36,751 bases of DNA from positions 1 to 36,751 of the forward strand of contig JALSIX010000110.1 in assembly GCA_026989655.1 (NCBI GenBank), given 5' to 3'. This DNA is from Caldilineaceae bacterium (lineage in GTDB: Bacteria > Chloroflexota > Anaerolineae > Caldilineales > Caldilineaceae). The notes beneath the pieces were generated by a model that saw nothing but the letters and a program-made list of their open reading frames with translations, was not told where the DNA came from and ran no database searches. Position numbers and translations under genes: made by a program. How positions within the stretch are numbered: the first letter of the stretch is position 1; each line of letters begins with the position of its first letter. Shown here in pieces: positions 270-31,190 of the stretch.

Positions 270-1355
270 GTGACCACCACAGCCGAACTCATCCGGCCGG
301 AAGAGCCCTATGTCCCGCGTCAGGAAGGGGCACTGCTGCGCCTTTTCCGCTCCTACTACCTGCGGAAGGTGTTCAAGGCCCTCTTCACCGCCTACGTGGT
401 GATCACCCTGACCTTCTTCCTCATCCGCCTGCTGCCCAGCAACCCCATCGAGTTCTACATCCAGGACCTGATGGTCCAGTACGGGATCCCCTACCACGAG
501 GCCAAGGATCAGGCGGCCGCGCTCTTCGCCATCGACCTGGACAAGCCCCTGGCCCTCCAGTACGTGGAGTACATGGGGAACCTCCTCCGGGGCGATCTGG
601 GCACCTCCATCCTGTCACCAGGCCAGTCGGTGGCCAGCTTCATCAAGCGCTTTCTGCCCTGGACCATCTTCAGCGTGGGCACTGCGCTGATCCTGAGCTT
701 CACCATCGGGGTGCTCCTGGGGCTGCTCATGGCCTACCGCCGGGAGAGCCTCCTGGACCACGCGCTCACCGTGGTGGCCTCGGTCCTGAGCTCCATCCCC
801 AACTACCTGCTGGGCATCCTGCTCATCGTGTGGCTCGGGGTCCAGTGGAAGCTCATCCCGGTCTCCCAGATGCGGGGCTCCCTGTCTCCCGGGGTCCAGC
901 CCGAGCTGAGCTTCACCTTCCTGAAAGACGCCCTCTTCCACGCGGCCCTGCCCATCGCGACCTATGTGCTGACCACCATGGGCAACTGGATGCTGACCAT
1001 GAAGAGCAGCACCATCGCGGTGCTGGAGGAGGACTACGTGACCGTGGCCCGGGCCAAGGGGCTGCCCGACTTCCGCATCACCACCGCGTACGTGGGCCGG
1101 AACGCGGCCCTCCCCCTCTTCACCCTGTTGACCATCTCCATCGGCTTCGTGGTGGGGGGCTCCGTGCTCATCGAGGGGCTGTTCCAGTACCAGGGCATCG
1201 GGTACATCCTGTTGCAGAGCGTGAACCGCCGGGACTACACGGTGATGCAGGGCGTCTTCCTGATCATCACCCTCTCGGTGATCTTCGCCAACTTCTTCGC
1301 GGACATCTTCTACAGCTGGCTGGATCCGCGCATCAAGCTCGGCGCGCAGGAGTAG
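270..1355 (+). CDS. Peptide/nickel ABC transporter permease (DppB-like)
   Basis: This 361-residue inner-membrane protein is the first of the two permease subunits of a dipeptide/oligopeptide/nickel-type importer. The N-terminal membrane helix lies around residues 36-55. An extracellular loop typical of DppB/OppB follows (about 56-130, with the family GDLGTS segment at 108-113). The BPD_transp_1 core begins near 133, and the EAA coupling motif that docks on the ATPases is at 254-266 (EDYVTVARAKGLP). The GTG at 270 is chosen because it follows an RBS-like ACGAGGA, whereas the upstream in-frame region is not coding-like. It heads a six-gene operon and is 7 bases from the second permease gene. 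Substrate (peptide, glycoside, nickel) cannot be told from the permease alone. Confidence 0.93.
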   Translation: MTTTAELIRPEEPYVPRQEGALLRLFRSYYLRKVFKALFTAYVVITLTFFLIRLLPSNPIEFYIQDLMVQYGIPYHEAKDQAAALFAIDLDKPLALQYVEYMGNLLRGDLGTSILSPGQSVASFIKRFLPWTIFSVGTALILSFTIGVLLGLLMAYRRESLLDHALTVVASVLSSIPNYLLGILLIVWLGVQWKLIPVSQMRGSLSPGVQPELSFTFLKDALFHAALPIATYVLTTMGNWMLTMKSSTIAVLEEDYVTVARAKGLPDFRITTAYVGRNAALPLFTLLTISIGFVVGGSVLIEGLFQYQGIGYILLQSVNRRDYTVMQGVFLIITLSVIFANFFADIFYSWLDPRIKLGAQE

Positions 1356-1362
1356 AAGCGAG

Positions 1363-2226
1363 ATGACCATGCTGCGCTCCCTGGCCACCACCCTGCGGAT
1401 CATCACCTACAACAAGGTGGGCTTCCTGGGCTTCCTGGCGGTGCTGGCCATCGTGCTGCTCTCCTTCGTGGGGCCCTACTTCGTGGAGCTGGACACCAAG
1501 ACCAAGGTGGACAAGATCTACCAGCCCCCCTCCCAGGAGTTCTGGCTGGGAACCGACCACCAGGGGCGGGACATCTTCTCCCAGATCGTCCACGGCGGGC
1601 GGGAGGTCATCGAGGTCGCGGTCATCGCGGCCGCCCTCTCCACGGCCATCGCGGTGACCTTCGGCACCCTGAGCGGCTTCGCCGGCGGCTGGGTGGACAC
1701 CGCGGTCATGTCCATCACCGACATCGTCCTCACCATCCCCCAGCTTCCCCTGCTCCTGGTCCTGGCCGCGCTGATCCAACTGAACAACATGATGGCCCTG
1801 GGGGTCCTGCTGGGCCTGCTGGGCTGGCCCGCGCTCCTGCGCGCGGTCCGTTCCCAGGCCCTCTCCCTGAAGGAGCGGGACTTCGTGGAGGCCGCCCGGG
1901 CCCTGGACCTGGGGACCTGGCACATCGTCTTCCGGGAGATCGTGCCCAACATGATGACCTACATCATCGTCAGCTTTGCCCTGGCCATGACCGGCGCGGT
2001 CTACGCCCAGGTGGGCCTGGTCCTCTTCGGGCTGGTCCCCTTCTCGGGGAGCAACTGGGGCGTCATGCTCAGCCTGGCCTGGGTCCGGGGTGCGATCTTC
2101 TACAAGGACAGCATCTGGTACATCATGATGCCGGTGGCGGCCATCGTGATCCTCCAGCTCTCGGTGGTGACCATGACCCGCTCCCTGGAGCTGGTGTTCA
2201 ACCCACGACTGCGCACAGGAGAATGA
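1363..2226 (+). CDS. Peptide/nickel ABC transporter permease (DppC-like)
   Basis: This 287-residue protein is the second permease subunit. It has the OppC_N-like N-terminal helix (about 19-38). The family hallmark GTDHQGRD follows at the start of the periplasmic loop, leading into the transport core of about five helices. The EAA region reads FVEAARALDLG and differs slightly from the usual ARALG, while keeping the following IVPN segment. The start ATG at 1363 lies 7 bases after the first permease stop, and an AGAAGCGAG stretch just upstream could act as a weak RBS. It pairs with the DppB-like subunit to form the pore and is energised by the two ATPases downstream. Confidence 0.93.
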   Translation: MTMLRSLATTLRIITYNKVGFLGFLAVLAIVLLSFVGPYFVELDTKTKVDKIYQPPSQEFWLGTDHQGRDIFSQIVHGGREVIEVAVIAAALSTAIAVTFGTLSGFAGGWVDTAVMSITDIVLTIPQLPLLLVLAALIQLNNMMALGVLLGLLGWPALLRAVRSQALSLKERDFVEAARALDLGTWHIVFREIVPNMMTYIIVSFALAMTGAVYAQVGLVLFGLVPFSGSNWGVMLSLAWVRGAIFYKDSIWYIMMPVAAIVILQLSVVTMTRSLELVFNPRLRTGE

Positions 2227-2230
2227 TCGG

Positions 2231-3322
2231 GTGACCCTTTCCACGGCAAGCTCCATGGCGAACTCCGTGACCTGGGTGCAGGAGGGCGAGACCGAGTCCC
2301 GGCCTCCCCTGAGCCTCCGGGACGTACACATCGTCTACAGCAGCCGTCGGGGGCCGGTGCAGGCCGTCCGAGGAGTCTCCTTCGACCTCCACGGGGGCGA
2401 GAGCCTGGCCCTGATCGGCGAGAGCGGTTCGGGCAAGACCACCCTGGGCCTGGGCATCGTCCGGCTGCTGGTGAAGACCGCCCGCATCACCCAGGGTGCG
2501 ATCCGCTACCGGCGCGACGGCCGGGAGATGGACGTCCTGGCCCTGGAAGGCCCAGAGCTCCGCCGCTTCCGCTGGAAGGAATGCGCGATGGTCTTCCAGT
2601 CCGCGCTCAACGCGTTCAACCCGGTCATCCGCATCTGGGACCAGTTCTGGGACACGGCCCGGGCCCATGGCTGGTCCGACCGCCGAGCCGTACGCCAGAA
2701 GGCCCTGGAGCTCCTCCGCTTCGTCCAACTGGACGCGGACCGGGTGATCGACGCCTATCCCCACGAGCTGAGCGGCGGCATGCGCCAACGGGTGCTCATC
2801 GCCCTCTCCCTCCTGCTGGATCCCCAGATCCTGATCCTGGACGAGCCCACCACCGCGCTGGACATCCTGACCCAGCGGACCATCATGGACCTCCTCCGCC
2901 GGCTGAAGGAGGAGCTCCACTTCACCATGATCTTCATCTCCCACGATCTGGCCATCGCCGCGGAGCTGGCGGATCGGGTGGCCACCATGTACGCGGGCAC
3001 CGTGGTGGAGCTGGGCCCCTCCGAGGCCATCTTCTACCAACCCCGACACCCCTACACCCTGGGGCTGATCCGGGCCGTGCCCACAGTCACCGGCGGCTAC
3101 GAGGAGCTCTACTCCATCCCCGGCTCGCCGCCGGACCTGATCGACCTGCCCAGCGGGTGCAAGTTCCATCCCCGCTGCCCCTTCGCCACGGAACGCTGCC
3201 GGAAGGAGGAGCCCCCCCTGGAGAAGGTGGGCGAGCACCACCTGGCCGCCTGCTGGCACTGGACCGAGGTGGCCGCGGAGCTGGGGCGCACCCCTCTGCA
3301 CCGACGCACACCGAACGCCTGA
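2231..3322 (+). CDS. Peptide ABC transporter ATPase (DppD/OppD-like)
   Basis: This 363-residue ATPase energises the transporter. Walker A is GESGSGKTT at 63-71, the Q-loop lies in [12 protein letters not shown], the signature LSGGMRQR is at 180-187, Walker B is LILDEP at 201-206 and the switch His is in ISHDL. The C-terminal oligopeptide/dipeptide domain (Oligo_HPY) follows, with cysteines 310, 316, 323 and 341 in the [10 protein letters not shown]...C arrangement. In the mycobacterial OppD such a cysteine set carries a [4Fe-4S] cluster, so the same is plausible here. The GTG start at 2231 lies 4 bases after the permease stop, with CAGGAGAATG overlapping the stop as RBS. The first 25 residues are an extension before the ATPase fold, and a later start is possible. 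Confidence 0.93.
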
Positions 3323-3331
3323 GCTGCTGCC

Positions 3332-4327
3332 ATGGCCCCCATCATCGAAGCCCGCCACATCACCAAGACCTTCGGCCGAGGCAAGGAACAGGTCGTGGCC
3401 GTGGACGCCGTCTCCTTCGCCATCCAGGAAGGGGAGATCCTCTGCCTGGTGGGGGAGAGCGGCTGCGGCAAGAGCACCACCGGCCGCATGATCGCGGGCC
3501 TGCTCCCCCCCACGGCCGGGGAGATCCTCTTCGAGGGCCGCCCCATCTCCCAGATGGCCCCGGAGGAGTACCGCCGCTACCGCCACGCGGTCCAGATCAT
3601 CCACCAGGACCCCTACGCCTCCCTGAACCCTGTCCAGACCGTGCAGCAGATCCTGGTCACCCCCCTGCTGCGCCACCGGAAGGTCGACGGCCCATCCGGT
3701 GCCCGGAAACGGGCCCTGGAGCTGTTGGAGATCGTGGACCTGACGCCCCCGGAGGACTTCCTGAACAAGTACCCCCACCAGCTCAGCGGCGGCCAGCGTC
3801 AACGGGTCTCCGTGGCCCGGGCCCTGACCGTGGAGCCCCGCTTCATCGTGGCCGACGAGGCCGTCTCCATGGTGGACGTCTCCATCCGGGTCAGCCTGCT
3901 CAACATGCTCACCCGGCTCAAGGAGGAGTTCCACGTGACCTTCCTGTTCATCACCCACGACCTGGCCCTGGCCAAGTACTTCGCCTGGCACGGTCGGATC
4001 ACGGTGATGTACCTGGGCCGCATCGTGGAGGACGGACCGACCCCCCGGGTGATCCAGGACCCCCGCCATCCCTACACCCAGGCCCTGCTCTCCGCGGTCC
4101 CCGAGGCCGATCCGGAGCTCACCCGGCGCAAACGGCGCATGGAGCTGCGGAGCGCAGACATCCCCAGCCTGTTGGCCCTGCCGTCGGGGTGCACCTTCCA
4201 CCCCCGATGCCCCTACTTCGTGGAGGGAGAATGCGACGTGAACGTGCCGCCCCTGGAGCCCATCTCGGAGGGCGGACGGGTCGCCTGCCCGGTCCGCAAG
4301 TCCGAGCCCATCCAGTTGCTGGCCTGA
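3332..4327 (+). CDS. Peptide ABC transporter ATPase (DppF/OppF-like)
   Basis: This 331-residue protein is the second ATPase of the heterodimer. Walker A is GESGCGKST at 41-49, the Q-loop is [10 protein letters not shown], the signature LSGGQRQRV is at 151-159, Walker B is FIVADE at 171-176 and the switch region is ITHDL. The D-loop reads SMVD, a variant that keeps the key Ser and Asp and is common in this subfamily. The Oligo_HPY tail has cysteines 287, 293, 301 and 319, again a potential [4Fe-4S] site. The ATG at 3332 follows the previous stop by 9 bases; a GAGCTGCTGCC stretch gives only a weak RBS, so translational coupling is likely. Confidence 0.93.
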
Positions 4328-4337
4328 GGAGAGGACC

Positions 4338-4529
4338 ATGCCTCCCGAACTGGGACGCGCCGGCATCCGCATCGGCACCTACGTGACCCTGATCAGCGGT
4401 GGCCTGCTCCTGGTGGTGGACAAGGGCACCCCGGAGTACGTGATCAGCCAGATCACCTTCATCATGGGCGTGGTCTTCCTGGCCCTGATCGGGGCCTGGA
4501 TCCGCTGGAGCCAGCGAAGACAGAACTGA
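4338..4529 (+). CDS. Small two-helix membrane protein of the operon
   Basis: This 63-residue protein has two hydrophobic segments (about residues 14-27 and 36-55) and a basic C-terminus (RWSQRRQN), suggesting a small integral membrane protein with both ends on the cytosolic side. It lies 10 bases after the second ATPase gene and has an AGGAGAGG RBS directly before the ATG. It is therefore translated as part of the transporter operon. I do not recognise a family. Its position between the ATPases and the binding protein suggests an accessory role in the transporter (assembly, regulation or subunit), but that is inference only. Confidence 0.7.
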   Translation: MPPELGRAGIRIGTYVTLISGGLLLVVDKGTPEYVISQITFIMGVVFLALIGAWIRWSQRRQN

Positions 4530-4544
4530 ATCCCTGCTCGCGCC

Positions 4545-4560
4545 CGACCGTCACCGGTCG
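4545..4560 (+). other. Intercistronic hairpin before binding-protein gene
   Basis: CGACCG and CGGTCG form a perfect 6-bp stem around a TCAC loop. No T-run follows. It sits between the small membrane gene and the binding-protein gene and could set differential expression or mRNA processing of the binding protein. Confidence 0.35.
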
Positions 4561-4606
4561 TTCGTCAACCATTCCATCCGTTTCACACACCACAAGGAGG
4601 AGCCCT

Positions 4607-6430
<1,824 letters not shown>

Positions 6431-8977: not shown

Positions 8978-10309
8978 ATGACCGACCTCGCGACCGCCCT
9001 GACCGCCGTCTACGGCCCGGAGATCCAGCCCCAGATCCGCCGCTACCAGGCCGGACTGGCCGCGTTCCGGGAACGGTTCGGCCCGGGACCGGTGACGGTC
9101 TTCCGGGCGCCGGGCCGGGTGAACCTGATCGGCGAACACACGGACTACAACGACGGCTACGTCCTCCCCCTGGCCCTGGACAAGGATGTGCTGCTCTTTG
9201 CCCGCCCACGTCCGGACTCCACGATCCACCTGCACAACCTGGAGCCCCGCTTTCCGCCACGGGCCTTCCCACTGGCCACCGCCATCCCACCGGCTCCTGC
9301 CGGCGATTGGAGCAACTACGTGCGCGGGGCCGCCCAGGAGCTGGCCCGCCGCCTGGGCCTGGAACTCCCGGGCCTGGACGTCCTGGTAGACGGGCGCCCG
9401 CCCCACGGCGTGCCCCGAGGTGCGGGGCTCAGCTCCTCCTCCGCGCTGACAGTGGCCAGCGCCGTGGCCCTGGCCTACTTCGGGGGATGGAGATGGGACG
9501 GGGACACCATGGCCCAGCTCTGCTCCCAGGCCGAGTGGTACGTGGGAACCCGGGGAGGCATCATGGACCAGTACATCGCGCTCCAGGCCCGGCGAGACCA
9601 CGCCCTCTTCCTGGACTGTCGCCCCCTGCCTGGAGGCAGCTTTCGCTCTCGTCCGGTGCCATTGCCCCCAGGTCACCGGCTGTTGGTGGTGGACAGCGGC
9701 GTACGCCACCAGAACACCCGCAACGAGTTCAACCGACGGGTGGCCGCCTGTCGGGCCGGTGTGGCCCTGTTGCGCCGCGCGCACCCGGGGATCGGCCACC
9801 TGCGGGACGTGGAGGCCGTGGACTGGTCCCGGCTGGAGCCTCTCCTGCCGGAGGTCATCACGCCGGCGGAGCTCCAGGCCCTGGGCCATCCGCTGGAAGA
9901 CCTGCCCAATGTGCCGCCCGACGCGCCGCTACGGGTTCGGGCCTGCTGTCGACACGTGTGGCACGAGAACCGACGGGTGTTGGCCACGGTAGCGGCCCTG
10001 GAACGGGGGGAGATGGCAGAGGTGGGGCGGCTGCTGCGGGAGGCCCATGCCAGCGGTCGAGACGACTACCAGGTGACCACCCCCGAGCTGGACACCCTGG
10101 TGGCCCTGGCCATGGAAGTGGAGGGCGTGGTGGGCGCCCGGTTCACCGGTGCCGGCTGGGGAGGATGTATCGTCGTGTTGGTGCGTCTGGAGGCCGTGGC
10201 GCAGTTCCTGGCCACGGTGCCCGAACGGTACAGGGCCCAGACCGGCCGCTCCGCCACCGTGTTCCCCTGCCGGGCAGGGCCCGGAGCCGGCCTGGTGGGC
10301 ACGTTCTGA
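8978..10309 (+). CDS. galK: Galactokinase
   Basis: This 443-residue GHMP kinase would phosphorylate galactose at C1 with ATP in the Leloir pathway. The galactokinase signature GRVNLIGEHTDYNDGY is at 46-61. The ATP-binding GHMP motif RGAGLSSSSAL is at 147-157, the catalytic Asp197 is in GGIMDQ, and the third GHMP motif GAGWGGC is at 391-397. It is some 50 residues longer than the E. coli enzyme. No galT, galE or galM is beside it, although a DUF4432 epimerase-like gene lies elsewhere in the window. A related sugar kinase (arabinokinase, N-acetylgalactosamine kinase) is possible. Its end is 17 bases from the end of the convergent ABC ATPase gene, leaving no room for a separate terminator. Confidence 0.9.
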   Translation: MTDLATALTAVYGPEIQPQIRRYQAGLAAFRERFGPGPVTVFRAPGRVNLIGEHTDYNDGYVLPLALDKDVLLFARPRPDSTIHLHNLEPRFPPRAFPLATAIPPAPAGDWSNYVRGAAQELARRLGLELPGLDVLVDGRPPHGVPRGAGLSSSSALTVASAVALAYFGGWRWDGDTMAQLCSQAEWYVGTRGGIMDQYIALQARRDHALFLDCRPLPGGSFRSRPVPLPPGHRLLVVDSGVRHQNTRNEFNRRVAACRAGVALLRRAHPGIGHLRDVEAVDWSRLEPLLPEVITPAELQALGHPLEDLPNVPPDAPLRVRACCRHVWHENRRVLATVAALERGEMAEVGRLLREAHASGRDDYQVTTPELDTLVALAMEVEGVVGARFTGAGWGGCIVVLVRLEAVAQFLATVPERYRAQTGRSATVFPCRAGPGAGLVGTF

Positions 10310-10326: not shown

Positions 10327-11442
10327 CTACGCGAGAACCTCCTGGGGAAACCGCTCCTCCCCGGGCAACAGGTAGAGATTGGAGCGGATGGGCTCCGCGT
10401 GGACCTGGGTACCCGGGGGGATCAGCTCCTCCTCCGCGGGGTTGTACTGGACGGCCAGGATCCGCTGCCCATCGATGGCGATCTCGTACTCCGCCCACGC
10501 GCCCAGATAGGAGGTCCGCACCACATCGCCCAGGAAGGCGGGCTCCGGCGGGGCCTCCAGGTGTATGCGCACGGACTCGGGACGGAGGAGGACCCACACC
10601 TCCTGGCCAGGATGGAAGCTCACCGCATCCGGCCGGGGCACCGGCACGGACACCTGGTACACCCGCACGTGGACGCTCTCCGCGTCCACCTGCTCCACCA
10701 CCCCGGGGAGGAAGTTGGCCCGACCGATGAAGTCCGCCACAAAGCGGTTGCGAGGCCGACGGTAGATCTCCGGCGCGGTGCCCACCTGCTGGATCTGCCC
10801 CTGGTCCATGACCACAATGCGGTCCGAGAGGACCATGGCCTCCTCCTGGTCGTGGGTGACGTAGACGCTGGTGATGGCCAGCTCCTGTTGGATGCGGCGG
10901 ATCTCGCTGCGCATCTGGACCCGGAGTTTCGCGTCCAGGTTGCTCAGGGGTTCGTCGAAGAGGAGCACCTTGGGCTCCATCACCAGGGCCCGGGCCAGGG
11001 CCACCCGCTGCTGCTGGCCGCCGCTGAGCTCGTTGGGCTGCCGGTTCTCCAGCCCGGTGAGCTCCGTCAGCTCCATGACCTCCCGCACCCGCTGCCGGAT
11101 CTCATCCCCCGGGAGCTTCTTCACCCGCAGGCCATAGGCGATGTTCTCGAAGACGCTCAGGTGGGGAAAGACCGCATAGCTCTGGAAGACCATGGCCATG
11201 TCCCGGCGGTTGGGCGGCAGGTGGTTGATCTCCTGGCCGTCCAGGACGATCCGGCCCCGAGTGGGGAACTCGAACCCCGCGATCAGGCGCAGGGTGGTGG
11301 TCTTGCCACATCCAGAGGGCCCCAACAGGGTCACGAACTCCCCGCGTTCGATGTCCAGGGAGACGTCATCCACCGCCAGGACGTCCGCGCTGCCGCCGCG
11401 GCCTGGGAAGACCTTGGTGAGCTGCTCCAGACGAAGATACAC
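10327..11442 (-). CDS. ABC transporter ATPase (Fe3+/polyamine/sugar type)
   Basis: This ATPase of about 371 residues powers the fused permease encoded just upstream. The family motifs are all visible: Walker A GPSGCGKTT, Q-loop FQSYAVFPHL, signature LSGGQQQRV, Walker B LLFDEP with D-loop SNLD, and switch His in VTHDQEEA. A C-terminal TOBE/OB-like regulatory domain follows from about residue 240 (RANFLPGVV onward). This layout is shared by FbpC, PotA and MalK types. The GTG at 11442 is chosen because GAGGAGAG stands at the right distance and because the protein then begins MYLRLEQLTK, as in relatives. An upstream GTG at 11475 would overlap the permease stop and lacks an RBS. Confidence 0.9.
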   Translation of the reverse strand: MYLRLEQLTKVFPGRGGSADVLAVDDVSLDIERGEFVTLLGPSGCGKTTTLRLIAGFEFPTRGRIVLDGQEINHLPPNRRDMAMVFQSYAVFPHLSVFENIAYGLRVKKLPGDEIRQRVREVMELTELTGLENRQPNELSGGQQQRVALARALVMEPKVLLFDEPLSNLDAKLRVQMRSEIRRIQQELAITSVYVTHDQEEAMVLSDRIVVMDQGQIQQVGTAPEIYRRPRNRFVADFIGRANFLPGVVEQVDAESVHVRVYQVSVPVPRPDAVSFHPGQEVWVLLRPESVRIHLEAPPEPAFLGDVVRTSYLGAWAEYEIAIDGQRILAVQYNPAEEELIPPGTQVHAEPIRSNLYLLPGEERFPQEVLA

Positions 11443-11464
11443 GTCTCTCTCCTCGAGGATGGTG

Positions 11465-13777
11465 CTATCCGCCACCCACGGTCAGGTCCACATCCGGACG
11501 AGCCGTGAAGGCCCGGCCCACCACCAGGTAGGTGAGGCCGATGGCCACCAGCACGATGGCGATCAGGATCATGGAGTAGGCCGCGGCCACGCTCATGCCC
11601 CCCTGTTCCACCTCGCTCAGGATCCAGACCGTCAGGATGGGCCACTCCGCGGTGGTGAGGAAGATGATGGCCGAGAGGCTGGTCATGTGGCGGGCGAAGG
11701 CGAAGATCAGGCCGGCGATGAAGGCCGGCAGGATCAGGGGCAGGGTCACATGGCGGAAGGTGTAGCCCGCGTCCGCGCCCAGGCTGGTGGAGGCCTCCTC
11801 GATGGCCGGATCGATCTGTTGCAGGGCCGCCACACCGGCTCGGACCGACGCGGGCAGGCTGCGGACCGCGTACGCGGCGATGACGATGTAGGGGGTCCCC
11901 ACCAGGGCCAGAGGGGTGCCGAAGAACATGGGCGATGCGCTCAGGGCCAGGATGCCCGCAGCCAGGGGAACCCGCCAGCCGGGCCGCATCTGGGCCACGG
12001 GATAGAGGCCCGCCACCAGGTAGGTGAAGGCCAGGATGGCCATGGTGGGCTGGAGAAAGACCTTGAGCATGCTGGCCGACTTGGTGACCACTCGTGACGC
12101 GATGAGCCCCGAGAGTGTGCGCCCCCACCGAGCCAGCGGATCGGTGACCAGTGGGGCCAGGTTGTAGAGGGCCAACATCAGGGCCATACCCACCAACACG
12201 GCCACCGCGCCCCGCCGCTTCTCCGGCACCGCGCCCCGCCCGGCCATCAGGGCCAGGGCCAGGAAGCCCACCACCAGGAGCCAGCGCCAGCCGTCCTCGT
12301 CCAGGCCCAGGTAGTAGGGGAGCCAGTTGATGCCATAGCCCACGGCCGTGGCCCCGGCCAACACGGCCAGCCGGCGGGACCAGCCGTCCACCGCGGTGGA
12401 GATCAGGTAGGCGGCCAACAGGGCATAGATCACGGCCACCACCCCCATGGGCGCGTTGATGAAGGCCAGGATGTAGCCGATGCCCAGGATGGTCCCCGGC
12501 ACCGCCCCGCCCAGATTGGAGGCGAAATCCAGGGCCTCCTTCCCAGAGAAGGCCTTGCGGACCACCAGGAACGCGATGACCATGCCGATGAGCCCGGCCA
12601 CCGGGGTGGCCACCGCGGAGAGGAAGGTGGTGGACAGGATCGCGTTCAGCCCCCGGGTGAACGCCGTCCGGTAGTGGGTCAGGTCCGGAGTGTAGTCGAT
12701 CCCCCAGAGCCGGGTGAGGGAGCCGATCAGGATGGAGGCGTACAGGGCCAACACCAGCAGGAGCATCAGCCCGGTGATGCCGATGAAGGTCCAGCGGATC
12801 CAGGGCTCCTTCACCTGGAGATGGCCGCCCGTGGGCTTGCCCGTCACCGCGATGTAGGAACGGCGGCTGACCACGTAGCGCTGGAGCAGGAAGACCGTCA
12901 GGGTGGGGATCAACAGGACCAAGGAGAGGGCCGCCCCCTTCTGCTGGTCGTACTGGCCGTTGATGGCCAGGAAGATCTCCACCGAGAGGACGCTGACGTT
13001 CCCCCCCAACAGCAAGGGGTTGCCCAGATCGGCCAGGGACTCCACAAAGAGCAGGAGAAAGGAACCGGCCAGGCCTGGGATGAGGAGGGGCAGGGTCACC
13101 GTGCGGAAGATATAGTACTTGCTGGCCCCCAGGCTCAGCGCGGCCTCCTCCATGGCCGGGTCCAGACGCTCCAACATGGCCCGGATGATCAGATAGGCCA
13201 CGGAGAAGAAGGTCACGATCTGGACGAAGACCAGGCCGTCCAGGCCGTAGACATCGTTGGCCCCCGGGCCGAACTCCATGCCCAGGATCCGTTTGGTCAC
13301 CAGCCCGGCTCGGCCGAAGAGGAGGATGGTCGCGATGGCGATGGCAAAGGGCGGGGAGATGGTGGGCAGCAGGGCCAGGGTGTGCAGCAGCCGGGGGAAG
13401 GGCACGTTGCAGCGGACCATGGTGTACGCGAAGATGAAGCCCAGGAGGGTGCCCCCGGCCGCGGTGGCCACCCCCATGACCAAGGTGTTCCGCAGGACCC
13501 AGTAGTTGTAGCCCCGGTAGTAGGGATCGATGTACTGCGCGAAGTAGACCGTACTGAACTCCCCTGTCTGGGGATCGAAGAAGCCCTGGACGATCACCCG
13601 CACCAAGGGCCAGACCACGAAGACGAAGACAAAAGCCCCCACGGCCATCAGGCCCAGGGCCAACACCGGGTCCTGGCCGATGAGACGGAACTCCTGCCAT
13701 CGGCGCCACAGGGTCGAACGCTCCGCCTGGGCCGGGGCCGCGGTGGGCACCACTGCACCGGGAGAGGCTTCAGCCAT
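11465..13777 (-). CDS. Fused double permease, Fe3+-type ABC transporter
   Basis: This 770-residue inner-membrane protein joins two BPD_transp_1 permease domains in one chain, as in FbpB-type iron transporters. EAA coupling motifs occur at about 210-219 (EEAALSLGAS) and 660-669 (EEASTSLGAD). The second domain is unusual: its normal segment GTILGIGYILAF (about 428-439) is separated from VGTPYIVIAAYAVRSLP (about 625-641) by roughly 180 residues that hold about six extra hydrophobic segments. In relatives I know, these two parts are nearly adjacent. The start ATG at 13777 follows AGGAG by 6 bases and excludes 24 upstream in-frame residues. It is encoded between the binding protein and the ATPase. 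Confidence 0.9.
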   Translation of the reverse strand: MAEASPGAVVPTAAPAQAERSTLWRRWQEFRLIGQDPVLALGLMAVGAFVFVFVVWPLVRVIVQGFFDPQTGEFSTVYFAQYIDPYYRGYNYWVLRNTLVMGVATAAGGTLLGFIFAYTMVRCNVPFPRLLHTLALLPTISPPFAIAIATILLFGRAGLVTKRILGMEFGPGANDVYGLDGLVFVQIVTFFSVAYLIIRAMLERLDPAMEEAALSLGASKYYIFRTVTLPLLIPGLAGSFLLLFVESLADLGNPLLLGGNVSVLSVEIFLAINGQYDQQKGAALSLVLLIPTLTVFLLQRYVVSRRSYIAVTGKPTGGHLQVKEPWIRWTFIGITGLMLLLVLALYASILIGSLTRLWGIDYTPDLTHYRTAFTRGLNAILSTTFLSAVATPVAGLIGMVIAFLVVRKAFSGKEALDFASNLGGAVPGTILGIGYILAFINAPMGVVAVIYALLAAYLISTAVDGWSRRLAVLAGATAVGYGINWLPYYLGLDEDGWRWLLVVGFLALALMAGRGAVPEKRRGAVAVLVGMALMLALYNLAPLVTDPLARWGRTLSGLIASRVVTKSASMLKVFLQPTMAILAFTYLVAGLYPVAQMRPGWRVPLAAGILALSASPMFFGTPLALVGTPYIVIAAYAVRSLPASVRAGVAALQQIDPAIEEASTSLGADAGYTFRHVTLPLILPAFIAGLIFAFARHMTSLSAIIFLTTAEWPILTVWILSEVEQGGMSVAAAYSMILIAIVLVAIGLTYLVVGRAFTARPDVDLTVGGG

Positions 13778-13812
13778 AGAACGCTCCTGGAGGGGGCGCA
13801 GCCATTCCATGC

Positions 13813-13844
13813 GGCCGACGGGGAAAGAGGTCTCCCCGCCGGCC
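13813..13844 (-). other. Intercistronic hairpin between binding protein and permease
   Basis: GGCCG and CGGGGA on one side pair with TCCCCG and CGGCC on the other, giving an 11-bp stem with one mismatch and an 8-base loop. With no T-tract it is more likely a processing or stabilising element that keeps the binding-protein mRNA more abundant than that of the permease. Confidence 0.45.
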
Positions 13845-13861
13845 GCCACGTGGGAGGAGGG

Positions 13862-14944
13862 TTACTTGCGCAGGTTCTCCGCGCCGGCGATCTCGTTGGT
13901 GAACTTGTCCACGAAGGCCTTCTTGTTCTCGCCGCACCACTGGAAGTCGTAGTCGATGAGCGTGACCTGGAGCAGCTCGGGCCGGGCAGCCTGGGCGCCC
14001 TTCACCGTGGGGGCCTGGTAGGCCTGGTACTTGGGGCCCAGCTCCTGGGTCGCGGGCTCCAGGGCCCAGTCGTACCAGAGCTTGGCGTTCTCCAGGTTCT
14101 TGGCCCCGGCCACGATGCCCATGCCGCCGATCTCGTAGCCGGTGCCCTCCTCGGGGAAGGTCAGCTCCAGGGGAGCGCCGTTCTCGATCTCGGCCACGAT
14201 GTCGTGGGAGAAGACGATGCCCACTGCGGCCTCACCCTGGCCCACGAACTTCGCAGGGGCCGCGCCGCTCTTGGTGAACTGGAGCACCTGGCCTGCGTAC
14301 TGCTTCAGGAACTCCCAGCCCTCCTCCTCGCCCTTGATCTGCAGGATGGTGCACAGGGCCGTGTACGAGGTCCCGGAGCTGGAGGGGTGGGCCACCATGA
14401 TCTGGCCCTGGAACTCCGGCTTCAACAGATCGTCCCAGCTCCGGGGCGGCTCCACCCCGGGGTTCTCTGCCAGCCAGTTCTTGTTGGTGGCGAAGCCCAG
14501 GGTGCCCACGTAGATGCCCACCCAGTACTTGTCGGGGTCCAGGTACTTCTCGGGATCGGCCAGGTTCGCGTGGTTGGGCGAATCGTAGGCCTCCAACAGC
14601 CCCTCCTGCTTGGCCGCGATGAAGCTGTCGATGGGGCCTCCCCACCAGATGTCGAACTGGGGATTGTCCCGCTCGTTGCGGAGCCGGGTCAGGGACTCGC
14701 CGCTGGACATGCGGACGAAGTTGACCGTGATGTCGGGATACCGCTTCTCGAACTCCGCCTTCATGCCCTCACACCACTGGACCTGCGGGGTGCAGAGCAG
14801 GTTCAGCTCGCCGCTGGGCGCGGCCGCGGCCTCACCGGCGGCCGCGCCGCCCTCAGGGGCCGTGGCCGGGGGCGGTGGTGCCGGACACGCGGCCAGCAAC
14901 AGCACCACGATGACCAATAGGGAGAACAGACCGATTCGGCGCAT
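13862..14944 (-). CDS. ABC transporter substrate-binding lipoprotein (Fe3+/FbpA-like)
   Basis: This 360-residue lipoprotein is the first gene of the three-gene ABC operon. The signal peptide ends in lipobox LAAC with Cys20, then a Pro/Ala/Gly-rich linker to about residue 44. The mature domain starts ELNLLCTPQVQWCEGMKAEF, followed by the family pattern of extracellular binding protein family 1/AfuA-FbpA: FDIWWGGPIDSF, GTLGFATNKNW, PRSWDDLLKPEFQGQI and the C-lobe KNLENAKLWYDW. The ligand may be ferric iron, but two- or three-carbon phosphonates, thiamine and polyamines use related proteins. A near-perfect RBS AAAGGAGGTG precedes the ATG. The promoter at 15028-15055 lies upstream. Confidence 0.9.
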   Translation of the reverse strand: MRRIGLFSLLVIVVLLLAACPAPPPPATAPEGGAAAGEAAAAPSGELNLLCTPQVQWCEGMKAEFEKRYPDITVNFVRMSSGESLTRLRNERDNPQFDIWWGGPIDSFIAAKQEGLLEAYDSPNHANLADPEKYLDPDKYWVGIYVGTLGFATNKNWLAENPGVEPPRSWDDLLKPEFQGQIMVAHPSSSGTSYTALCTILQIKGEEEGWEFLKQYAGQVLQFTKSGAAPAKFVGQGEAAVGIVFSHDIVAEIENGAPLELTFPEEGTGYEIGGMGIVAGAKNLENAKLWYDWALEPATQELGPKYQAYQAPTVKGAQAARPELLQVTLIDYDFQWCGENKKAFVDKFTNEIAGAENLRK

Positions 14945-27765: not shown

Positions 27766-27826
27766 GGTTCCGGCGGCAGAGTTTCCGGCGCTCTCACCCA
27801 GCGCGCCCAGTGGAAAGGAGGATCCC

Positions 27827-29488
27827 ATGTTGGAAGGCCTCATGATGCACTACCCCCTGACCATGGACCGGATCCTGGAACATGGCAACCGCCTCTACCG
27901 CCACAAGCGGATCAAGACCCTCCTGCCCAACGGGAAGATGCACGAGTACACCTACGGGGACCTGTACCGCCGGGTCAAGCGGCTGTGCAACGTGCTGGAG
28001 GGTCTGGGGTTGCAGATGGGCGACCGGGTGGGCACCTTTGCCTGGAACAACTACCAGCACATGGAACTCTACTTCGGCGCCCCCCTGGCCGGTGGCGTGG
28101 TCCACACCCTGAACATCCGCCTCTTCCCCGAACAACTGGCCTACATCATCAACCACGCGGAGGACCGGATCCTCTTCGTGGACGGTACCCTGCTGCCCCT
28201 GGTGGAGCAGGTGGCCGACCGGATCCCCCACGTGGAACACTTCGTCCTCTTCAACGTGCCCCCTGGTCGGGAGCCCCGGCTTCCCGGCCAGGTCCACGAC
28301 TACGAGGCCCTGTTGGCCGACGCCAGCGAGGAGTACACCTGGCGGGTCCAGGACGAGAACCAGGCCCTGGGCCTCTGCTACACCAGCGGAACCACGGGAA
28401 ACCCCAAGGGCGCACTCTACAGCCACCGCTCCATGGTCCTCCACACCATGGGAGAGTGTCAGGCCATGGCCTTGGGCCTGACCGAGTCGGACGTGGTCCT
28501 GCCCGTGGTGCCCCAGTTCCACGCCATGGCCTGGGGCCTGCCCTACGCGGCCACCATGGTGGGCGCGACCCTGGTCATGCCGGGCCCCCACCTGAAGCCC
28601 GAGGCCCTGGCCCAACTGATCGAGGCAGAGCGGGTGACCGTGGCCGCGGGCGTCCCGACCATCTGGAACGGCCTCTACCACGAGCTCCGGACCCGTCCCC
28701 GGGACATCTCCTCCATCCGCGCGTTGGTGGTGGGGGGCTCGGCCATGCCCCGAGCCCTCATCGAGGCCTACGAGCGGGACCTGGGGGTGAACGTGCTCCA
28801 CGCCTGGGGCATGACCGAGCTCTCCCCCCTGGGCACGGTCTCCAAGCTCCTGAGCCACCACCAGGACCTGCCCGCCCCCCAGAAGTGGGACGTGAAAGCC
28901 CGACAGGGCTATCCCATCTTCGGCGTGGAGATGCGCATCGTGGACGACGCGGGCCACGAGCTCCCCTGGGATGGCACCACCATGGGCGAGCTCCAGGTCC
29001 GGGGCCCGTGGATCATCCGGGACTACTTCAAGCTGGAGGGGAGCAGCGACGCCTTCACCCCGGACGGCTGGTTCCGTACCGGGGACGTGGTCACCGTCCA
29101 CGAGGACGGCTTCATGACCATCACCGACCGGACCAAGGACCTGGTGAAGTCCGGCGGGGAGTGGATCTCCTCGGTGGAGCTGGAGGGCCACCTGATGGCC
29201 CATCCAGATGTCCTGGAGGCCGCGGTCATCGCCATGCCCGACGAGAAGTGGCAGGAACGGCCCCTGGCCGTGGTGGTCCTGGCCCCCCAGGCCCGAGAAC
29301 AGGTCCAGGTAGAGGAGCTGAACGCGTTCCTGGAGCCCAGGGTGGCCCGATGGTGGCTGCCCGATGCCTATGCCTTCGTGGAGGAGATCCCCAAGACCAG
29401 TGTGGGCAAGTTCGACAAGAAGGTGTTGCGGGAGCGGCTGGCCCAAGGCGAGCTGAGGCCCATCCGTGCCCGGGAAGCCACCCGCTGA
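27827..29488 (+). CDS. Long/medium-chain acyl-CoA ligase (AlkK/FadD-like)
   Basis: This 553-residue enzyme activates a carboxylic acid with ATP and CoA via an acyl-adenylate. The AMP-binding P-loop [11 protein letters not shown] is at 185-195. The A5-type motif [12 protein letters not shown], the A7 [10 protein letters not shown] and the hinge/A8 [21 protein letters not shown] are present, and the C-terminal catalytic lysine region reads [11 protein letters not shown]. The N-terminus ([19 protein letters not shown]) resembles AlkK-type medium-chain fatty acid ligases. An excellent RBS AAAGGAGG precedes the ATG. The iron-sulfur gene follows by 35 bases, but a functional link is not obvious. 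Confidence 0.92.
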
Positions 29489-29523
29489 GGAGCCCCGCGG
29501 GCCCCCTGCCCCAGCCACCACCT

Positions 29524-30816
29524 GTGGACGCTTTCCCGACCCCACCGCCCAGGATCCACCCAGACAGGTGCCTGAACAGCCGGCACCGGCAGGCCGGCTG
29601 CACCCGCTGCACAGATGCCTGCCCGGTGGACGCGCTGCCCCAATCCCAGGGCCTCCCCGTCCTGGATGGGGACATCTGCGTGGCCTGTGGAGCCTGCGCG
29701 GCCGTCTGTCCCACGGACGCGGTGTACCCGCCCCAGCGGCCGGAACAGATCCTGCTCCGGACCCTGGACGGGCTTCCCGCGGTGCCCCTGCTCCTGGCCT
29801 GCCCTCGAGCCTCTGTGGATCGAGGGACCCAGGCCCCGGTGGCCGGGATCGTGCGCCATGTCCGCTGCCTGGCCGGCCTGGACATGGCCGACCTCCTGGC
29901 CGCCACCGGCCACGGGCAACGGACCCTCTGGCTGGACGACACGGCCTGTGGCCAGTGCCCCATCGGCGCCCTGGGCCCCGCGATCCAGGCCACCGCCCGG
30001 GCCGCGGATCGCATCCTGCACACGTTCGGCCTTCCCGGACGCCTCCGCACCACGGCGCTGGACACGGGGCAGCTCCTGGACAGCCCGGAACGCCGCCCAG
30101 TCCTTCTCGGCACCCAGCCTCGGCTCTCTCGCCGAGAGCTCTTCCGAGGGCTGATCCGAGGAGACGAGGCCTCGAGAGACAGAGACCCTGCCCCGGATCT
30201 GCCCATGCTCCTGCCCGGGGGTCCCGTGGCACTGCGCCTGCCCAAACAGCTTCCGGAAAGCCGTCGGCGGCTGCTGGAGGCCCTGGCCCGGCTGGCCCGC
30301 TCGGCCGCAGTGGACATGGGCGCCGCGACCCTCGCGGCCCAGGACCTCCCGATGGCCCGGGTGAAGGTCCAGGGGGACAGGTGCTCGGGCTGTGGGCTGT
30401 GTGCCCGCTTCTGCCCCACCGAGGCCCTGGCCTTCGCCGGCCCCGACCCCACCGTCCGGCTTCGGCCCACCGAGACCGTGCCCTTCCAACTGGCCTTTCG
30501 GGCCGATCTGTGCATCGACTGCGGGATCTGTCAGGTGGCCTGCCCCGAGGAGGCCGTGGAGTACGGGGAAGAGCTGTCGCTCCGGGATCTGGTGGAACCG
30601 GGCTGGAGCGTGCTGGCCGCAGGTGCGCTGGGGGCCTGCCGGAGATGCGGTGCGGCCACTGCCCCGCGCCCCGGGGATGGAGCACCGCTCTGCTATGCCT
30701 GTCGAGGCGGCGAGGGGGAGCCGCTCCACGGGACTGGGGGAACGGACATGCTGGACGACCTGCGCAGTCAGCTGATGGAGTACCTAGGCGGCTCCCAGGA
30801 GGATCCAGGAGCCTGA
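29524..30816 (+). CDS. Multi-cluster iron-sulfur protein, MvhD-like centre
   Basis: This 430-residue protein appears to be a soluble electron carrier or an iron-sulfur subunit. Twenty cysteines fall in ordered sets. The first cluster has C16, C26, C29 and C33 with an odd first spacing (Cx9CxxCxxxCP). A regular set follows at 52-62 (CVACGACAAVCP). The central domain has C93, C115, C142 and C145 and recalls the hydrogenase-subunit/MvhD fold (RHVRCLAGLDMADLLAATG). Two regular [4Fe-4S] sets lie at 287-297 and 330-340, and C372, C375, C390 and C393 form a likely zinc ribbon. GTG 29524 is the only plausible in-frame start and lacks an RBS, so the N-terminus is uncertain. The partner enzyme is not in the window. 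Confidence 0.8.
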   Translation: MDAFPTPPPRIHPDRCLNSRHRQAGCTRCTDACPVDALPQSQGLPVLDGDICVACGACAAVCPTDAVYPPQRPEQILLRTLDGLPAVPLLLACPRASVDRGTQAPVAGIVRHVRCLAGLDMADLLAATGHGQRTLWLDDTACGQCPIGALGPAIQATARAADRILHTFGLPGRLRTTALDTGQLLDSPERRPVLLGTQPRLSRRELFRGLIRGDEASRDRDPAPDLPMLLPGGPVALRLPKQLPESRRRLLEALARLARSAAVDMGAATLAAQDLPMARVKVQGDRCSGCGLCARFCPTEALAFAGPDPTVRLRPTETVPFQLAFRADLCIDCGICQVACPEEAVEYGEELSLRDLVEPGWSVLAAGALGACRRCGAATAPRPGDGAPLCYACRGGEGEPLHGTGGTDMLDDLRSQLMEYLGGSQEDPGA

Positions 30817-30823
30817 CCCGGAG

Positions 30824-30838
30824 CGCCCTTCCCGGGCG
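30824..30838 (+). terminator. Short hairpin after iron-sulfur gene
   Basis: CGCCC and GGGCG pair around TTCCC eight bases after the stop. The stem is only 5 bp and no T-tract follows. Confidence 0.25.
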
Positions 30839-30905
30839 GGGCCCAATCCGTTCCAGCCCCGCACCCAATGGCGCCCGAGAGCCCGGCCTGTACGCCCCGA
30901 GCCGT

Positions 30906-30922
30906 CTGCGGGAGTCCCGCAG
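30906..30922 (+). promoter_or_regulatory. 17-bp palindrome upstream of antitoxin gene
   Basis: CTGCGGG and CCCGCAG form a perfect 7-bp inverted repeat around AGT, 40 bases before the antitoxin start. Antitoxin-toxin complexes of this kind often bind palindromes here for autoregulation. An RNA hairpin is an alternative. Confidence 0.45.
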
Positions 30923-30962
30923 GGCGGACGCCGGCCCTCTGCCATCCTTGGAGGCCCGAACC

Positions 30963-31190
30963 ATGCGCACCTGGACCATCGATCTGAGCCGTTCCCGGGT
31001 CTGTCTGGAGGAAGCCGTCCGGCTGGCCCAGGCAGGCTACACCGTCCGCATCGTGGAGGACAGCCGCGTGGTGGCCCGCCTGGTCCTCGCTACATCGCCC
31101 CCGGTGTCGGCCCGGGCCCCCGGCCTGGCCCGGGGGCAGATCCGTCTGCCCGAGGACGACTCCAGCCCGGCGGAGCTGGAACAGCCGTGA
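30963..31190 (+). CDS. Type II antitoxin (Phd/VapB-like)
   Basis: This 75-residue protein is a likely antitoxin. The N-terminal half (MRTWTIDLSRSRVCLEEAV...AQAGYTVRIVEDSRVVARL) resembles the DNA-binding part of Phd/YefM and VapB-type antitoxins. The C-terminal tail ARGQIRLPEDDSSPAELEQP recalls the GxAxGxIxxxxDFxxPL motif of Phd-type partners of PIN toxins, including the acidic end. The ATG has GGAGG eight bases upstream. Its stop overlaps the toxin GTG by four bases (GTGA), a strong sign of translational coupling. It would neutralise the PIN protein encoded next. Confidence 0.72.
   Translation: MRTWTIDLSRSRVCLEEAVRLAQAGYTVRIVEDSRVVARLVLATSPPVSARAPGLARGQIRLPEDDSSPAELEQP

Follow-up and report, generated by a model that had tools for sequence, protein, structure and literature searches.

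The locus raises the question of whether a long hydrophobic stretch in the second half of a fused ABC-importer permease is a genuine inserted domain and, if so, where it came from and what it could do. The window, i.e., the whole stretch of DNA that was analysed, comprises 36,751 nt of contig JALSIX010000110.1 (assembly GCA_026989655.1) of a Caldilineaceae bacterium (Chloroflexota; Anaerolineae). The permease gene is located at 11465..13777 on the minus strand and encodes 770 aa from an ATG at 13777. Its frame is open over 11465-13849, also on the minus strand, and an alternative GTG start at 13849 would yield 794 aa; all residue numbers given here refer to the 770-aa form. The gene is the second of three on one strand, in the order binding protein, permease and ATPase. 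The binding protein (13862..14944, minus strand) is AfuA-like with a lipobox-like start, and the ATPase (10327..11475, minus strand), which has a TOBE_2 domain and a GTG start, overlaps the permease stop by 11 bp. In a gene survey of 80 loci, the ATPase was found in 75 and the binding protein in 65, and in 61 of these 65 the binding protein gene is directly upstream of the permease.

Other genes of the window include a galactokinase gene (8978-10309) that is convergent with the ATPase gene, the two coding regions being 17 bp apart, and an oligopeptide-type ABC operon (270-6430, plus strand) comprising two BPD_transp_1 permeases, two oligo_HPY ATPases and an SBP_bac_5 binding protein. A 1061-aa reading frame at 27794-30979 on the minus strand has no Pfam match at 1e-6.

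A membrane domain inserted between two core helices

The permease exhibits two BPD_transp_1 (PF00528) stretches above the cut-off and nothing further in Pfam at E 1. The EAA loops, EEAALSLGA and EEASTSLGA, are found near 13124-13150 and near 11774-11800 of the minus strand, respectively, and the BPD_transp_1 fold with one EAA loop per half identifies the protein as a type I ABC importer permease. Residues 1-443 (12449..13777, minus strand) cover the first half together with the second half as far as its core helix 3, and residues 622-770 (11468..11914, minus strand) comprise the remainder of the second core half. The AlphaFold2 (AF2) model of the full permease (mean pLDDT 79.3, pTM 0.78) was aligned with the structure of Thermus FbpB (9j4r), with a Z score of 29.6 and an rmsd of 3.6, the alignment spanning residues 51-770. 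Because 488 of the 490 residues of 9j4r align with the model, the core is complete without the insert, and the modelled core is an ordinary one.

The insert itself corresponds to residues 444-621 (11915..12448, minus strand), which are missing from insertless relatives. Its approximately 178 residues lie between P443 and P622, i.e., between core helices 3 and 4 of the second half, and the landmarks GTILGIGYILAF and LVGTPYIVIAAYAVRSLP are 185 residues apart in the window permease. A first, sequence-only reading of this DNA had already proposed a large insert at 11912-12451, and the bounds are now refined to nucleotides 11915-12448. The tightest empty site is that of the insertless permease L117, which reads GYILAFNKP-PILLVGT where the window permease reads GYILAFINAP, about 178 residues, and then PLALVGT. 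Insertless relatives of this type exhibit 6 residues at the insert site (AFNKP followed by PILLVGT), and members of the nearest insertless clade exhibit 20-31, so that the gain relative to the latter is nearer 155-165 residues.

That reading frame and codon character run unbroken through the insert, as proposed in the same reading, is confirmed by the open frame and by the GC content at third codon positions, which amounts to 0.919 inside the insert and to 0.925 in either flank. The same insert occurs in 66 other full-length genes, which bears out the proposal of a real insert and not an assembly error; together with its detection in 81 of the 396 genomes sampled from the class, this rules out an artefact of assembly or frame. 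The insert is thus a real inserted membrane domain.

With regard to its distribution, a query consisting of the insert with a little flank matched 22 of 100 related genomes, own included, the other full matches being 34-67% identical. A query with the C-terminal core, from which the insert was left out, retrieved 22 of the 100 genomes at at least 66% identity, own included, and these are the same 22 genomes; three of the frames concerned (390, 449 and 486 aa) run off the end of their contig. Ranked next are eight matches of the core query with 47-58% identity and frames of 583-624 aa, one of them cut at 268. Ten insertless permeases were read (seven of these eight, one at 41% identity and two paralogs from the genome of the window), and all of them have 5-31 residues at the insert site. 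The length of the window permease is therefore not the norm of its family, a point on which the earlier proposal depended, as the insertless homologs have an ordinary core.

A scan of genome contigs yielded 344 relatives. In the 80 best of these, which were retained, the match extends across the insert region; since they were found by a query containing the insert, its presence in them is not independent evidence. In an alignment of the window permease with 66 full-length relatives (67 rows), the insert measures 177-207 aa, with a median of 185. At E 1e-3, an insert profile matched the 81 class genomes mentioned above, own included, i.e., about a fifth of the 396 sampled, although one of the 81 matches (G706, 5.4e-4) is probably due to chance and another (G623) is a contig-end piece. 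A phylum-wide search with a 19-row profile matched 5 of 400 genomes, own included; both of these searches scored 8 candidates per genome. Among 504 plasmid records with a match, none spans 80% of the whole permease in one place. As judged from these alignments, many Chloroflexota keep the insert at the same position. The most divergent insert-bearing permease in the tree described below, L112 (genome G268), has 209 aa in the insert region and sits on a long branch.

Predicted anatomy, internal repeats and history of the insert

When modelled alone in AF2, the insert (pLDDT 91.6, pTM 0.86) exhibits the same helices as in the full model, in which its ten-residue blocks have pLDDT values of 85-95; it is a self-contained predicted fold. 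About six hydrophobic segments had been expected from the sequence-only reading, and the models indeed give six membrane helices, together with one more helical hairpin. Hairpin 1 (residues 444-483; 12329..12448, minus strand) consists of helices a (444-462) and b (466-483), and hairpin 2 (residues 494-540; 12158..12298, minus strand) of helices c (494-515) and d (518-554). The additional hairpin, predicted to be extracytoplasmic, covers residues 541-576 (12050..12157, minus strand) and comprises the end of helix d and an amphipathic helix (558-575), its side being taken from the topology. Hairpin 3 (residues 577-620; 11918..12049, minus strand) consists of helices e (579-595, broken at 590) and f (599-617). 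In the model, the turns of all three membrane hairpins measure two or three residues.

The insert helices are mostly hydrophobic, and arginine and lysine residues concentrate in three turns, a-b, c-d and e-f, whereas b-c shows no such enrichment. Based on the positive-inside rule, this distribution has the insert begin and end on the outside, as it must if it was inserted into the outer loop that joins core helices 3 and 4. From this topology and the models we infer that the outer hairpin is extracytoplasmic; within the hairpin itself, with approximately 3 Arg/Lys versus 2 Asp/Glu per sequence, the positive-inside argument is not clean. Two of its residues are nearly invariant, R553 being present in 64 and Q576 in 59 of the 67 aligned members. 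Taken as a whole, the outer hairpin does not exceed most of the membrane helices of the insert in conservation (entropy of 1.98-2.16 versus 2.05-2.40).

The helices of the insert are distinct from those of the permease core, as had been proposed. In profile comparisons, the insert matched the N half with a probability of 0.3 and the C half with a probability of 4.1, whereas the control comparison of the N half with the C half gave 98.3; these values rule out duplicated core helices as the origin of the insert. Comparison of the hairpins with one another gave a different picture. For ab versus ef, the score was 31.4 and the probability 93.8, and none of 150 column shuffles reached this score (best, 13.6). 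For ab versus cd, the score was 25.1 and the probability 84.0, and for cd versus ef, the match was weak (score 17.2, probability 22.7). Column shuffles for cd reached at most 14.7, and the core-window controls (74 per hairpin) reached a maximum of 17.4 for ab, 11.5 for cd and 14.9 for ef. The cd/ef score is thus below the best ab-core window, yet above all core windows for cd and ef. The two halves of the insert matched each other with a probability of only 63.8. These controls all come from one protein, and a shared topology can raise such scores. The hairpin repeat therefore looks clear for ab/ef, fair for ab/cd and weak for cd/ef, as far as profile similarity goes, and it is rather likely that the insert grew from copies of a two-helix hairpin. 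What appears to be new here is an insert seemingly built from repeated hairpins plus a predicted outer helical hairpin.

A match between the insert helices and a known family, which had been envisaged earlier, was not obtained in Pfam, NCBIfam or the PDB profile search. The window insert hit no family in Pfam at E 10 and none in NCBIfam at E 0.1, and one or two of the other members' inserts hit any one family (best E 0.011 in Pfam and 0.00068 in NCBIfam); the insert profile had no hits in the PDB. Fold searches gave no confident match, either among viral models or in the PDB, where the best Foldseek E value was 0.30 and the best VIA Z score was 7.5, which is within the chance range for helical bundles; a missing match is no proof of a new fold. 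ECF S components were weighed since they also have six helices, with these same values as the best fold scores. In the 100 relatives, the insert profile gave 24 matches at E 3.2e-29 or better in 23 genomes, own included, the next match being at 0.003; 23 of the 24 are in permeases that were read, and one (G091) is at a contig end. No free-standing copy was found among the 100 relatives or the 396 class genomes, the short insert frames of the class search (G623, 104 aa; G521, 179 aa) lying at contig ends, and the plasmid records contain no insert-profile match at E 10. The literature that was searched, which included few subscription journals, contained no title on this insert and no transport experiment on this clade.

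In order to place the insert in the history of the permease, a tree was built from 42 insert-bearing and 14 insertless rows without the insert columns. All insert rows fall on one side of a branch with an SH-aLRT support of 99, and the presence of the insert requires one change on the tree, a value that none of 500 shuffles matched. The tree was made with a quick method, gave long-branch warnings among the distant insertless rows and has a midpoint root, which was not inferred. The nearest insertless clade comprises L113, L114, L116 and L118, all from the class of the window, and L124 (Nonomuraea); the branch uniting this clade with the insert rows has a support of 89, under the star. Because insertless rows sit on several branches, the insert was more likely gained than lost. 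Two Spirochaetota MAG contigs with an insert-bearing permease, L088 and L094, are nested among Chloroflexota rows; either the gene was transferred horizontally or the contigs were binned wrongly.

In the 16 closest pairs, some of which share members, dN/dS is 0.07-0.34 for the insert and 0.02-0.14 for the core, the insert value being approximately 1.6 to 11 times the core value. The insert is under purifying selection. Its mean identity to the window across the 66 other members is 0.34, compared with 0.70 for the N core and 0.78 for the C core.

Substrate class of the importer

The ferric importer FbpABC is marked by Fe3+-coordinating tyrosines in its binding protein. The window permease had been described as Fe3+-type, a label that is probably wrong: among the best solved relatives of the neighbouring binding protein, AfuA (4r72, E 2.4e-69) comes first, followed by 8x1a (E 5.5e-68) and P5PA (6wce, E 5e-63), and the binding protein keeps the residues that were mutagenised in AfuA. 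According to the AfuABC paper (PMC4546632), this system takes in hexose and heptose phosphates, S37 and T150 of AfuA contact the phosphate, H205, D206 and E229 contact the sugar, and the substitutions H205A, D206A and E229A abolish binding. S81, Y145, T192, H247, D248, E271 and Q310 of the window binding protein are equivalent to S37, Y103, T150, H205, D206, E229 and Q269 of AfuA, respectively (mapped by eye, the AfuA chain numbers being two above those of the paper), so that all five mutagenised residues (S37, T150, H205, D206 and E229) are kept.

This pocket is widely shared in the insert clade. Among 65 aligned binding proteins, the equivalents of H205, D206, E229 and T150 are present in all 64 rows with letters, one row having a gap, and the position of S37 is occupied by Ser in 54, Ala in 7 and Thr in 4. 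In the five members of the insertless sister clade, the pocket letters are identical at all 13 positions checked. Six of 13 insertless binding proteins, all outside the sister clade, differ at H205 or at other pocket positions. A lipobox-like start was found with a loose pattern in 57 of the 65 insert-clade binding proteins and, with the same loose pattern, in 8 of the 13 insertless ones, including 3 of the 5 in the sister clade.

Based on these pocket residues, the cargo is likely to be a sugar phosphate, and the importer probably serves for the uptake of phosphorylated sugars, not of iron. The nearest NCBIfam names are PhnU2 for the permease, PhnS2 for the binding protein and, for the ATPase, both PotA and PhnT2. 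None of them reaches its cut-off, including the three equivalogs of the 2-aminoethylphosphonate importer (PhnU2, 230.8 of 593.25 bits; PhnS2, 211 of 392.75 bits; PhnT2, 379.4 of 457.7 bits). A PfkB-type carbohydrate kinase gene is found near the operon in 10 of the 80 loci surveyed (L079, L085, L088, L089, L094, L095, L096, L098, L103 and L106, the Pfam name coming from L094 only), in 8 cases downstream of the ATPase with the same orientation, and a HAD-type hydrolase is found in 5 of the 80; this survey of neighbours is incomplete, as many contigs end near the operon. The kinase fits sugar uptake, though it is a neighbour in a minority of loci. Insertless relatives are annotated as "iron ABC transporter permease", which is probably a mis-annotation in this clade, given the sugar-phosphate residues of the window binding protein.

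Some insertless systems exhibit other pockets. Two genomes of the same family, G008 and G012, each have an insert-bearing and an insertless system; the binding proteins of the latter (L115 and L117) have Pro-Ala at the positions of H205-D206 and Phe at that of Q269, and they therefore probably bind another ligand. On Ensifer and Paracoccus plasmids (L125 and L127), insertless systems have binding proteins with Gln at the position of AfuA H205 and Arg at that of Q269, and inositol monophosphatase and aphA genes lie after the Paracoccus operon. These two systems may bind another phosphorylated compound.

Possible roles of the insert and comparison with known systems

The reading that we favour, albeit tentatively, assigns the insert two tasks in an AfuABC-type importer, composed of a lipoprotein-like binding protein, a fused permease and an ATPase, that would take up hexose- or heptose-phosphate. 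In an ancestor, a six-helix membrane domain, probably the product of repeated copying of a two-helix hairpin, would have entered the loop on the water side that connects core helices 3 and 4; between its helices d and e, an amphipathic helical hairpin would project outward. The insert may brace the outer end of core helices 3 and 4, the site of the outer gate, and the outer hairpin, with R553 and Q576, may offer the membrane-tethered binding protein an additional place to dock, in the way that MalF P2 contacts its own binding protein. In this scheme, the substrate class, the topology, the gain over loss, the bracing and the docking are all inferred. Against docking, the insert diverges fast (identity of 0.34 to the window), which is unusual for a tight binding interface, and the entropy of the outer hairpin is no better than that of the membrane helices. 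Moreover, neither the tethering of the binding protein nor this substrate is enough to demand the insert, because 8 of the 13 insertless binding proteins have a lipobox-like start as well. A more ambitious version, in which an undescribed domain grown by hairpin duplication would form a dedicated outer platform for docking and gating, a membrane-embedded counterpart of MalF P2, appears unlikely.

Almost as likely as bracing and docking, though doubtful in its own right, is a plain stabiliser, in which the insert would be a purely structural, lipid-facing element or a self-association surface that makes no contact with the binding protein. Low conservation combined with similar length and a confident fold is what such an element would exhibit, as are the mostly hydrophobic helices and a purifying selection that nevertheless leaves dN/dS at approximately 1.6 to 11 times the core value. 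That R553 and Q576, on the side predicted to face outward, are nearly invariant suggests something beyond contact with lipid, but these residues may merely hold the hairpin together. The repeat signal among the hairpins and the fast divergence could also be explained by a hairpin-duplication expansion that is tolerated and has little function beyond folding, and the insertless relatives are apparently intact; however, the insert-free core query found no insertless member at at least 66% identity in 100 genomes, and dN/dS of the insert is well below 1, which makes this explanation improbable.

Equally improbable is a platform for a separate membrane partner, regulatory or enzymatic, that would, for instance, process the imported sugar phosphate. 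The insert, as a self-contained membrane domain whose cytoplasmic turns are short and rich in Arg, could recruit partners, and the PfkB-type kinase and the HAD-type hydrolase are recurrent neighbours (10 and 5 of 80 loci), but both are absent from most loci surveyed and neither is a known membrane protein. An effect of the insert on the substrate range, which the sequence-only reading had suggested, could be imagined because it is located in the second half, close to where the translocation path opens to the outside. It finds no support and is very unlikely, because the five insertless sister systems (L113, L114, L116, L118 and L124) keep the same pocket at all 13 positions.

Type I importers are considered to have a conserved core and to vary chiefly at their ends or in soluble loops. 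A six-helix domain in an internal loop, with the core undisturbed and the domain kept in many members of a class, offers a natural experiment on the ways in which transporters accommodate and exploit new membrane parts. Since insert-bearing and insertless sisters exhibit the same pocket, the effect of the insert is directly testable. The finding also points to a likely mis-annotation of "iron" permease relatives, for which uptake of phosphorylated sugars is probable.

Among known systems, AfuABC has in common with the window the three-gene operon and the AfuA-like binding protein, and the likeness is read from these. The six-helix insert of the window permease is a presumed difference, and the residue corresponding to T60 in AfuA is a proline in the window binding protein. 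The binding protein of the vitamin B6 phosphate importer P5PAB (PMC8427247; 6wce) is related to that of the window (E 5e-63). The substitutions A205D and A228E proposed in that paper imply that P5PA has alanine residues where AfuA has D206 and E229; the window binding protein has Asp and Glu there. FbpB of Thermus thermophilus (FbpBC, 9j4r) is a fused permease like that of the window, with 23% identity in the alignment, and its chain is nearly all core, with no room for the insert. In MalF, the P2 region is soluble and lies between TM3 and TM4 (core helices 1 and 2). Like the window insert, it is a large insertion in the permease of a type I importer. It contacts the binding protein, according to a title in the reference list of PMC3150292. 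Unlike MalF P2, the window insert is membrane-embedded and lies between core helices 3 and 4.
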